Shown here in pieces: positions 4,209-29,907 of a DNA stretch of 36,184 nt. Source of the DNA: Patescibacteria group bacterium (GTDB lineage Bacteria > Patescibacteriota > Minisyncoccia > Phycocordibacterales > Phycocordibacteraceae); NCBI GenBank assembly GCA_029260935.1, contig JAJDCJ010000009.1:1-36184 (forward strand), in the 5' to 3' direction. The translations under genes and the position numbers were made by a program. The notes beneath the pieces are model-generated. The model was not told the DNA's origin. It saw nothing but the letters and a program-made list of their open reading frames with translations, and searched no databases. The stretch's first letter is position 1. Each line of letters starts with the position of its first letter.

Positions 4209-5183
4209 TTATGCTAGATTTTCTAAAAACGTTATGAGAGCATCTTGTGCGCCTTTCACTAGAGTATCGTCAAGTATTGAAACTACAATGACGGTGAGTC
4301 CGAGTGCTTTGAGTTCTTTTTCTTTTTCCTTATACTCGCTTTCTGACACTTCATCTATTTTCGTAAGAAAGACTATCTCTGGCTTCTGAGTAAGTACTTC
4401 ATCATACTGTAAAAGTTCATCTCTGATTGTTTTGTACGCCGAGACTACGTCTTCATGTTCAGTTGAAACACAGTGGAGTAACACACGTGTGCGACGAACG
4501 TGTCTTAAAAAGGCGTGCCCTAGACCCTTCCCTGATGACGCCCCTTCTATAAGGCCGGGGATGTCGGCAAGAACATAGTTGTACAAAACACCGAGGTTCG
4601 GTTCAAGTGTGGTGAATTCGTACGCTGCAACTTTTGTTTTCTTTTTTGTAAACGCATTAAGGAGGCTTGATTTACCTGCATTGGGAAATCCGATAAACCC
4701 CACGTCGGCGATAAGCCGGACCTCAATAAAGAGAGTCCCTTCTTCAGCTGGTTTTCCTTCTGAAAATTGCTCAGGGCGTTGGTTGGTTGATGATTTAAAG
4801 TGAGAGTTCCCAAAACCACCTCTACCCCCTTCAAATACAATATACTCTTCCCCTTCCGTAAGGAGGTCCCACTCTCTCCCTGACTCTTTATGCACTACCC
4901 TTGAGCCAACGGGTACATCAATATAGGTATGCGTTCCATTCCTGCCCTCCATGTCGTTTCTAAAACCGTCAGCGCCATTTTCAGCACTAAACTCAGAAAC
5001 TCCTTTATAACGAACGAGTCTGTTCAGATCACGCACGCCGCGGATGATGATGTCACCGCCCCGCCCTCCGTTTCCTCCTGACGGCCCTCCAAACTCTTTG
5101 CCTTTGAGGTGTAGCCACCTGACAACACCATCGCCACCTTTGCCGGCGTTTGCCTTAACTGTCATTTCATCCACAAATGCCAT
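4209..5183 (-). CDS. obg: GTPase Obg/CgtA
   Basis: MAFVDEMTVKANAGKGGDGVVRW (Obg fold), DVGFIGFPNAGKSSLLNAFT G1 motif, ADIPGLIEGASSGKGLGHAFLRHVRR. Track start at 5270 lies inside a palindromic repeat; the ATG at 5183 matches the family N-terminus. Confidence 0.93.
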   Translation of the reverse strand: MAFVDEMTVKANAGKGGDGVVRWLHLKGKEFGGPSGGNGGRGGDIIIRGVRDLNRLVRYKGVSEFSAENGADGFRNDMEGRNGTHTYIDVPVGSRVVHKESGREWDLLTEGEEYIVFEGGRGGFGNSHFKSSTNQRPEQFSEGKPAEEGTLFIEVRLIADVGFIGFPNAGKSSLLNAFTKKKTKVAAYEFTTLEPNLGVLYNYVLADIPGLIEGASSGKGLGHAFLRHVRRTRVLLHCVSTEHEDVVSAYKTIRDELLQYDEVLTQKPEIVFLTKIDEVSESEYKEKEKELKALGLTVIVVSILDDTLVKGAQDALITFLENLA

Positions 5184-5246: not shown

Positions 5247-5275
5247 AAAATATGGACACGGCGTGTCCATATTTT
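5247..5275 (+). repeat. REP-like palindrome copy 1
   Basis: aaaatatggacacg-g-cgtgtccatatttt; 14-bp perfect arms, single central G. Confidence 0.95.
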
Positions 5276-5292
5276 CTGCTACACTGTACTTT

Positions 5293-5937
5293 ATGGAATT
5301 TTTTCACCTACTGAATCGTGGAGTGGACAAACGCAAAGTCTTTCTTAATGAAGCAGATTATGTACGCTTCATGCATGACTGTTATGTATTCAACGACAAA
5401 GAAAACGTAGGCCCAAACCACCGTTTTAAGGAGTTTGAATCAACGTATAAGCGTAAGCCATTGGTTATACTCCATGCGTTTTGTCTTATGCCTAACCACT
5501 ACCACTTGCTCGTTTCTGAGGTACAAGAAGGAGGTATGTCTCTGTTTATGCGGAAGCTTAACATGGGGTACGCAAAGTATTTTAATGAGAAATATAATCG
5601 CTCCGGTGTTCTTTGGCAAAGCACATTCAAAAAAATACATATTAAGCGTGATGCTCACTTTATGTATATTCCCTATTATATTCATCTCAATCCGCTTGAT
5701 ATGAATTTTCCTTTGTGGCGTACGGGTAAGGTAAAAAACGCAAAGCAGGCACTTGCGTATCTACACACATACCGATGGAGTAGTTTTATGGACTACAATG
5801 GTATGAAAAATATGCCCTCACTTATTACGACGAAATATGTTGGCGACATGCTTGGATCAGCAAAGAAACAAGAGAATGAAATAAAACAAATCATTTCATC
5901 CCCCGATCTTGTAGGTGACGCGGGGAGTATTGAATAG
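5293..5937 (+). mobile_element. REP-associated tyrosine transposase (RAYT, Y1_Tnp/HUH), IS200/IS605-like
   Basis: HUH motif in LMPNHYHLLVSE, YNRSGVLWQSTFKKI, YIPYYIHLNPLD; coding region directly flanked by palindromic repeats. Start moved from GTG 5263 (inside the repeat) to ATG 5293, giving MEFFHLLNRGVDKRKVF. Confidence 0.9.
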
Positions 5938-5966
5938 AAAATATGGACACGGCGTGTCCATATTTT
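5938..5966 (+). repeat. REP-like palindrome copy 2
   Basis: Same 29-nt sequence as copy 1, same orientation, directly after the RAYT TAG stop (5935-5937). Confidence 0.95.
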
Positions 5967-6002
5967 CTGGGGTGGTTTTCTTTCTGTGCTACTGGTTAAC
6001 AG

Positions 6003-6379: not shown

Positions 6380-6408
6380 AAAATATGGACACGGCGTGTC
6401 CATATTTT
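6380..6408 (+). repeat. REP-like palindrome copy 3
   Basis: Identical 29-nt palindrome, preceded by GTAG (6375-6378). Confidence 0.95.
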
Positions 6409-6427
6409 CTGAGGAGGTGGTGGTATG

Positions 6428-6452
6428 AATATGGACACGCCGTGTCCATATT
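6428..6452 (-). repeat. REP-like palindrome copy 4 (inverted relative to copy 3)
   Basis: aatatggacacg-c-cgtgtccatatt; central base is C on plus, so orientation is opposite to the other copies; 12-bp arms. Confidence 0.92.
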
Positions 6453-6473
6453 TCTAAAAGTGTCTTTTCTCCA

Positions 6474-9584: not shown

Positions 9585-9604
9585 AAGAGAATGTATTTAC
9601 TTTT

Positions 9605-9688
9605 GTTGTCTTGAGTGTGCGACTGACGGGCGCGGGCTCCAAAAAGATCTTATGTGAGTGCTGCCATCAGCCGCACACTCAAGGCAAC
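9605..9688. ncRNA. Candidate structured RNA (unclassified)
   Basis: 17-bp closing stem gttgtcttgagtgtgcg / cgcacactcaaggcaac (one wobble/mismatch), inner ctgacgg/ccatcag stem, terminator nearby at 9551-9584. Strand unresolved; minus preferred because of terminator position. Confidence 0.4.
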
Positions 9689-9749
9689 TTATTAAAGAAT
9701 ATCATATGGAGGATATCTCTTCTGTCGTTGAGATTTATGAGGGCTATGT

Positions 9750-9778
9750 AAAATATGGACACGGCGTGTCCATATTTT
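9750..9778 (+). repeat. REP-like palindrome copy 5
   Basis: Identical 29-nt palindrome; arms extend one more base pair (9749/9779). Confidence 0.95.
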
Positions 9779-9869
9779 AAATGGAGAGAGAGTTGAATCG
9801 GAGTTGGGTGGTGGGTGGTGGTGGGGTTATTAGATAGATTCGTGAGGGTTGGGGGGGTGAGGAACATAT

Positions 9870-9900
9870 TCTAACTAGGACATCGGATGTCCTAGTTAGA
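9870..9900. repeat. Diverged REP-like palindrome
   Basis: tctaactaggacatc-g-gatgtcctagttaga: 15-bp perfect arms, single central G; shares GGACA...TGTCC core with the REP copies. Confidence 0.8.
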
Positions 9901-16083: not shown

Positions 16084-16731
16084 ATGCGAAGTATGAATAA
16101 AATACGATATTTCATAATCAAACTCTTAGAGAAAATCGGATACTATTATCCGGAACGTCTTCGTTCTGAAAATTTAATAAAGTATTTTTTTTATAAAGAA
16201 CTCTTTGACAAAGCTAAACACTTAGACGGCGCAATTGTTGAGTGCGGAGTTGCCTACGGTCAAAGTCTTGTCGTATGGTCAACACTTGCAAAAGCAGAAG
16301 GTAGAAATAGACAGGTATATGGTTTTGATTCGTTTGAAGGGTTTCCCAGCCCAACAATAGAAGACGTAAGTGAGCGTAATCCTAAAAAAGGTGAGTTCAA
16401 TGACGCCACCCAAAAACGCGTTGAAGTGATGTTAAAAAAGGCATACGTACCAATGCCAATACTTATAAAGGGTTTCTTTAAAGAAACCCTACCTCCTTTT
16501 AAAGAGAAAATCGCAATTCTATATATTGATGTAGATTTACACGATTCCTATAAAACTGTTTTAGAGAATTTATATGAACAGGTCGTGCCTGGTGGCGTTA
16601 TTGGTTTTGATGAATATAAAACCCCTGCATGGCCTGGAGCAACAAAGGCAGTGGATGAGTTCTTTGTTGAAGAAAAAAAGAATATTCAAAAAGGTGAGTA
16701 TTCAGGTAAGCATTTTTTTATAAAAAAATAA
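16084..16731 (+). CDS. TylF/MycF-family O-methyltransferase
   Basis: GAIVECGVAYGQSLVVWSTLA...VYGFDSFEGFPSP...ILYIDVDLHDSYKTVLENLYEQVVPGGVIGFDEY. Confidence 0.85.
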   Translation: MRSMNKIRYFIIKLLEKIGYYYPERLRSENLIKYFFYKELFDKAKHLDGAIVECGVAYGQSLVVWSTLAKAEGRNRQVYGFDSFEGFPSPTIEDVSERNPKKGEFNDATQKRVEVMLKKAYVPMPILIKGFFKETLPPFKEKIAILYIDVDLHDSYKTVLENLYEQVVPGGVIGFDEYKTPAWPGATKAVDEFFVEEKKNIQKGEYSGKHFFIKK

Positions 16732-29858: not shown

Positions 29859-29907
29859 CCCACCATCAGAATTAGCGATGTTGGGCATCGCTAATTCTGA
29901 TGGTGGG
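29859..29907. repeat. Perfect 22-bp inverted repeat with 5-nt loop
   Basis: cccaccatcagaattagcgatg-ttggg-catcgctaattctgatggtggg, abutting the stop of the 29908..31035 gene. Confidence 0.9.

Follow-up and report, generated by a model that had tools for sequence, protein, structure and literature searches.

A gene for a RAYT-like HUH transposase in a patescibacterial genome was found between two identical perfect palindromes, and solitary copies of the same palindrome were found throughout the genome. In related genomes, other RAYT genes are bracketed in the same way. We consider it likely that this is a REPtron-like unit that was gained whole, that its palindrome was spread by the RAYT and that the arms of the copies were rewritten by template switching.

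The RAYT-like gene and its flanking palindromes

The window, the whole stretch of 36,184 nucleotides that was analysed, is contig C20 of a genome of 694,962 bases in 21 contigs. The features are given in positions of the window.

4209 to 5183, minus strand: obg, one flank of the insertion site
5247 to 5275, plus strand: REP copy 1, palindrome on the 5' side of the RAYT unit, with arms of 14 bp around a central G, 18 nt before the ATG
5293 to 5937, plus strand: RAYT-like Y1/HUH transposase gene, 214 aa, ATG at 5293 and TAG at 5935-5937 (best reading)
5936 to 5968, plus strand: REP copy 2, the 3' palindrome of the RAYT unit, 16-bp arms, 2-nt overlap with the stop codon
6003 to 6338, minus strand: gene of a holin-like small membrane protein, the other flank of the insertion site
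6380 to 6408, plus strand: solo REP copy 3 in the spacer that separates the holin-like gene from secA, arranged with copy 4 as an inverted pair
6428 to 6452, minus strand: solo REP copy 4, with the opposite centre
9749 to 9779, plus strand: solo REP copy 5, intergenic
9870 to 9900, no strand assigned: palindrome of the sister family GGACATCsGATGTCC, 7 copies in the window genome

The 29-nt palindrome AAAATATGGACACGGCGTGTCCATATTTT occupies 5247-5275 and 5938-5966, with a G at the centre of both. Exact copies of the 29-mer are also present at 6380-6408 and 9750-9778 and, on the opposite strand, at 6426-6454, which makes five palindrome copies in the window. A chance origin was rejected, since 0 matches are expected even when up to 3 mismatches are allowed. 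The bracketing of the Y1/HUH gene by two identical palindromes with 14-bp arms and a central G, described in an earlier note on this DNA, is therefore real. Copy 1 lies in the divergent spacer between obg, which starts at 5183, and the RAYT, as that note had it. Its placing of copy 2 directly after the stop codon is correct for the 29-mer, which begins at 5938, but not for the full arms with their 2-nt overlap. Similarly, CTG does follow both copies, but the first T of the reported continuation TCTG is the palindrome's own last base. Of the 14 copies in the genome, only 3 have CTG on their 3' side, and the trinucleotide therefore does not belong to the element. The same orientation of the two copies holds at this unit but does not define such units: in flanks of RAYT genes the centre base was the same at 24 loci and opposite at 23, and a mechanism based on direct orientation was rejected.

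Two further elements were observed in the window. At 29859-29907, a hairpin whose perfect arms of 22 bp enclose a loop of 5 nt lies outside any repeated family of the window genome. At 9600-9690, between an ORF for a lysine-rich histone-like protein and a membrane protein gene, about 75 nt are conserved in congeners (81-82% DNA identity), and the ends of this stretch are able to pair (GTTGTCTTGAGTGTGCG / CGCACACTCAAGGCAAC). It is possibly a structured RNA; the search for tRNAs and for Rfam families above the cut-off gave no match there.

The encoded protein carries the HUH motif N68-H69-Y70-H71 and a candidate catalytic tyrosine, Y129, within YIHLNP, and the residues of both the NHYH and the YIHLNP motif are invariant across 29 relatives. 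It thus has the HUH motif and the single Y1-family catalytic tyrosine with a Y..NP signature that are expected of a REPtron. Pfam Y1_Tnp matched with 36 bits, and NCBIfam REP_Tyr_transpos with 43.8 bits, under its curated cut-off of 80. A PDB sequence search found nothing, but the fold of an AF2 model built from the 29 relatives (mean pLDDT 87.9, with a low-confidence loop at residues 42-47) matched 4er8 best, the structure of a RAYT in complex with a REP hairpin, and next the IS608 and ISDra2 transposases. The identification as a RAYT-like HUH transposase is borne out by the Y1_Tnp match, the REP_Tyr_transpos match below cut-off and the fold match to 4er8.

The window genome has 8 Y1 genes that are mutually diverged, most of them adjoined by a different palindrome, and the window RAYT is single-copy. 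Relatives in named genomes were mostly from Patescibacteria/Parcubacteria, and these relatives and the genome size point to a patescibacterial origin of the window genome. One order-level relative (G146) has twelve RAYT matches in a 500-kb genome. A literature search found no paper linking RAYTs or REPs to Patescibacteria or Parcubacteria, although such absence is not proof.

Dispersal of the palindrome

The 19-nt core of the palindrome has 14 exact occurrences in the genome, and one degenerate copy was also found. All 14 have the arm ATATGGACACG in common around a centre of G or C, giving a 23-nt unit with the core ATATGGACACGGCGTGTCCATAT. The palindrome is thus dispersed through the genome, as had been proposed from the window, and is not confined to the window. 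Outside the palindrome no sequence is conserved among the 14 copies, and neither a guide nor a target motif was found. GT[AG]G, which is a REPtron criterion, was present at the 5' foot of the hairpin in 1-2 of the 14 copies, as by chance. The proposed 5' guide tetranucleotide had to be given up, with GTRG absent and no flank conserved, and neither the CTG tail nor any other external tetranucleotide was accepted as a guide.

No copy of the window core was found in 9 other sampled genomes of the genus. A close variant with A/T at the centre occurs ten times in G026, which belongs to another genus of the same family; a distance of 1.5 kb around the examined copies contained no RAYT. The inner core was present in 6 of 7 genomes that have RAYTs with a GACACGsCGTGTC core and in 0 of 9 others. 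In G013 (L030) and G047 (L032 and L033), window-type cores were observed closely spaced in inverted pairs; the two members of a pair together make up a single long palindrome, as in REP dimers.

Other palindrome families were also seen. Cognate RAYTs of the GGACATCsGATGTCC family are present in other genomes, with none in the window genome. On contigs C4, C8, C9, C16 and C17 of the window genome the families TATGATTAATCATA (10 copies), TATCATATATGATA (7) and GAATCCCGGGATTC (6) occur; four of the ten TATGATTAATCATA copies lie within genes, where they encode TMINHS. No RAYT adjoins these three families in the window genome, and they may be orphan families or reflect another mechanism. A separate family of 38-46 nt palindromes, GTATAGTATAATyTAACG.., was observed in L268 (local 16475-16520) and in the G005 loci L279-L302. 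In G005 it is present at some 20 places or more, and one orthologous site in G010 has retained it.

Pairing of RAYTs and palindromes across relatives

Among 54 evaluable RAYT loci from congeners and the same order, 30 had one shared palindrome on both sides. When the left and right sides were re-paired among the loci, the mean was 0.9 and the maximum 5 in 1000 trials, and control windows taken from these loci shared a palindrome in 1 of 100 cases. The other 24 loci had no shared pair at the arm length used, which counts against the explanation that we prefer. In a second set of 74 loci from named genomes, 38 shared a palindrome, with a re-paired mean of 5.9 and a maximum of 12; the background is higher here because the loci were chosen as closest relatives. 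The 5' copy is mostly centred 27-40 nt before the ATG and the 3' copy lies at the stop codon.

The similarity of RAYTs correlated with that of their palindromes (r 0.33, reached in 0 of 2000 shuffles). On the RAYT tree, three palindrome types required 4 changes, against a shuffled mean of 10.1. Cognate palindromes that both flank the gene and are dispersed, as in a REPtron, were thus found, with 2-14 copies per genome. The earlier note could fairly say that the family was not recognised: pairing of this kind is widespread among Patescibacteria, and we found no paper that describes it.

Probable gain of the unit

The closest named RAYT, with 64% identity, is that of Candidatus Yonathbacteria RIFCSPLOWO2_01_FULL_43_27 (L303), which is the sister of the window RAYT on the tree (98/92 support). 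It is bracketed by an identical 23-mer and located between an ftsQ-like gene and atpB, and these are the only two palindrome copies of that genome. In the window genome the ftsQ-like gene and atpB lie on different contigs. In three congeners (G018, G002 and G020) the genes secA-holin-obg-gatB are closely packed, the holin-obg gap being 25-57 bp, and in G016 the gap is 88 bp, whereas the window has the unit inside a gap of 820 bp. The holin-secA gap, which contains the solo pair at 6380-6452, is 136 bp in the window and 5-32 bp in five congeners.

The unit of about 720 bp therefore behaves as an insertion, as had been suspected, with empty sites in congeners and the same unit elsewhere in Ca. 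Yonathbacteria. A megablast search for a phage origin, insensitive at such divergence, found no near match. From the empty sites, the Ca. Yonathbacteria locus and the pairing we infer a REPtron-like unit that was gained as a unit and a palindrome that spread separately. The gene orders are evidence for a probable gain of the whole unit between obg and the holin-like gene, and stand against PMC8266576, according to which evidence for mobility of tnpAREP is lacking. All that the gaps show is a gain by rare transfer, not frequent transposition.

Palindromes within coding genes

Palindromes of sister families were found in frame in tgt, uvrA, leuS, alaS, mutY, a tatD-like gene, prmC, tsaD, a comEC-like gene and tsaC/yrdC (genes called by a simple script, names from NCBIfam). 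Stop codons in the remaining frames restrict the reading frame in which a copy can lie. In prmC (C19:78916-79672, L057), two palindromes of two families are in frame in one gene of 251 aa. This gene has the longest in-frame arms, 19 bp, and at 38% identity is too diverged to tell the original arm. When aligned with G008, the copies in uvrA, mutY and leuS were free of gaps and others added 2 to 13 aa. The uvrA loop is about 4 aa longer than across the genus, although the palindrome has 27 nt. We conclude from the gap-free alignments and the uvrA loop that local sequence was replaced by at least some of the copies and not simply added to. Several in-frame copies look like replacements and not like clean insertions, which would not be expected from simple transposition, and this counts against our preferred explanation.

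The RAYT genes themselves can carry a copy. In one set 21 of 55 RAYTs, and in the other 16 of 74, had a palindrome of their own flank type in frame; with a single exception, its centre lies 18-28 aa ahead of the HUH motif. This position corresponds to the low-confidence loop of the window RAYT model. The window RAYT itself has no self copy.

Outer arms and their changes between species

Beyond the conserved core, the outer arms differ from copy to copy and yet are paired. In 75 intact copies of 13 families the arms extended by a mean of 4.16 bp, with 16% of the copies at 8 bp or more. The extension was measured outward from the inner core; the families had been selected for perfect arms of 9 bp, a criterion that is biased towards perfect copies. 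When the left flank of one copy was combined with the right flank of another, the mean was 1.06 bp with 0.2% at 8 bp or more, a control value that is raised by A/T or C runs common to some families. In G008 the extension was 7.3 against 1.97 in the control (20 copies).

Changes between close species were followed in G005 and G010, which are 85.7% identical across one locus of 5.7 kb. At two orthologous sites of one family, G005 has ATGTTGGG..CCCAACAT and G010 has ATGTAGGG..CCCTACAT, both arms being altered alike according to the family of each species. One of these sites is intergenic near secA, the other is within a gene that looks like a tRNA-dihydrouridine synthase gene. The pairing at the intergenic site extends over another 12 bases in G005 and over none in G010, with the right flank constant in length. 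A third site has the same outer stem and a different tip; at a fourth, the palindrome of G010 is perfect and that of G005 has decayed. In one RAYT flank, CTC..GAG corresponds to CCC..GGG. These changes are concerted evolution, on few sites: about six orthologous sites were compared, a small number that counts against our preferred explanation. Between G000 and G008 (about 70% DNA identity), the intergenic DNA is too diverged for a comparison of palindrome sites.

Our preferred explanation runs as follows. The unit of RAYT-like HUH transposase and cognate perfect palindrome would have been gained between obg and the holin-like gene. The RAYT, to judge from its fold and from the pairing, would recognise its hairpin as single-stranded DNA. 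The palindrome alone would then have spread within the genome, most likely by the RAYT acting on, and presumably cleaving, the single-stranded hairpin. After arrival, one flank may have been copied onto the other through the hairpin by template switching during replication, as the species comparisons suggest. This rewriting would explain why the outer arms are specific for a copy but perfectly paired, and why both orthologous arms change together. HUH enzymes form covalent protein-DNA complexes. In E. coli such complexes stimulate template switching (PMC6357072), and template switching creates and maintains stems (PMC8794818). We hypothesise that the covalent complexes of HUH enzymes may be linked to template switching at hairpins. 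However, known RAYTs need a conserved foot or guide (PMC8266576), and the lack of both in our palindromes counts against this explanation.

It is possible, but rather unlikely, that the palindromes were instead inserted into the tips of pre-existing hairpins, mainly intrinsic terminators, so that the outer arms are the old terminator stems. Some outer arms are indeed terminator-like, e.g. AGAAACCCCTCCC..GGGAGGGGTTTCT, plain terminators such as CCACCCCTCACGGGGTGG exist in the clade, and REPs nested in palindromes are on record (PMC3733652). However, the pairing is perfect straight from the old to the new stem without loop remnants, the arms are extended within genes as well (prmC), and at the single site for which there is an ortholog the flank had been rewritten without a change in length.

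Doubtful, too, is a mode of action in which RAYTs do not cut and paste at all: the covalent cut of the hairpin would provoke template switching, which would write the palindrome over local sequence, extend the arms by flank copying and homogenise the copies to the specificity of the current RAYT. If true, this would yield both the replaced in-frame coding palindromes and the concerted evolution of a whole family.

Selection offers an improbable account, in which the hairpins are bidirectional terminators or operator sites, the association with the RAYT is incidental and the arms are compensated by selection. Many copies are intergenic with A/T-rich arms, and selection for hairpin function would likewise give compensated arms, which counts against our preferred explanation. 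But palindrome identity tracks the RAYT lineage and the RAYT flanks, copies lie in frame in essential genes, and the core is absent from the 9 sampled congeners.

Very improbable, finally, is the reading of the unit as a common insertion sequence of the IS200/IS605 type that ends in hairpins: it would fit the hairpins at both ends, the empty sites and the HUH/Y1 fold common with IS608 and ISDra2, but the unit has no second copy among the diverged Y1 genes, YIHLNP with NP belongs to class 2 and not to IS200 class 1.1 (Y- - -Q; PMC6006769), there are many more solo palindromes than units, and no guide or target motif lies beside the 14 hairpins. Neither several near-identical units nor a Y- - -Q signature nor a conserved target or guide motif was found. 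The suggestion of a multi-copy, self-mobilising IS200-like element did not hold, as the RAYT is single-copy, the 8 RAYTs are diverged and their flanking palindromes are all different.

Comparison with known systems

With the canonical REPtron of E. coli, Stenotrophomonas and Pseudomonas, the preferred REPtron-like unit shares a class-2 HUH/Y transposase that is single-copy per lineage, flanking palindromes with many more dispersed solo copies, and a palindrome of its own for each RAYT. In contrast to the canonical system, there is no GTRG foot or conserved flank here, the palindromes are perfect with copy-specific outer arms, in-frame copies occur in housekeeping genes and within the RAYT before the HUH motif, and the copies number 2-14 and not hundreds. 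Since GTRG is absent and the NCBIfam cut-off was missed, we do not file the unit as a canonical REPtron, though it works like one.

The TnpAY1 subclass 2.1, or TIRYT (PMC6006769, PMC3733652), is similar in its NHYH/NHFH and Y[IV]HLNP motifs, its length near 214-238 aa and the lack of GTRG; its motif set NH[YF]H plus Y[IV]HLNP agrees with the RAYTs here in a comparison by motifs alone. However, subclass 2.1 was reported without REP-like sequences nearby (PMC6006769), whereas perfect palindromes flank many members here. Likewise, the TIRs of some TIRtrons are self-complementary and occur repeatedly in the genome (PMC3733652). TnpAREP subclass 2.4 of Cyanobacteria and Bacteroidetes (PMC6006769) also carries a REP in frame within the tnpAREP gene itself. 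There the insertion is generally between HUH and Y, but here it is 18-28 aa before HUH almost always, and GTRG is absent.

Quasipalindrome template switching (PMC8794818, PMC6357072) resembles our system in that it both makes and repairs perfect stems and gives multi-base compensated changes. In the literature searched, it had not previously been linked to HUH transposases and their palindromes. Our system is a test case for the question whether an HUH nuclease is able to drive hairpin template switching.

Rickettsia palindromic elements (RPEs) are longer, about 100-150 bp, and we know of no transposase assigned to them, unlike here, where a cognate transposase was identified for several families. 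The palindromic elements of Rickettsia and Wolbachia (work of Ogata and Claverie, as referenced in PMC3733652) are also inserted in frame into protein-coding genes. In the Patescibacteria the in-frame palindromes are a coding cost, borne in very small genomes by genes for aminoacyl-tRNA synthetases, DNA repair and tRNA modification. At the same time, rules of recognition can be read from dozens of RAYT-palindrome pairs in these bacteria, which are independent of each other and in which it is known which palindrome goes with which RAYT. The empty site, the unit moved between loci and the paired changes in close species complete this natural matching set.
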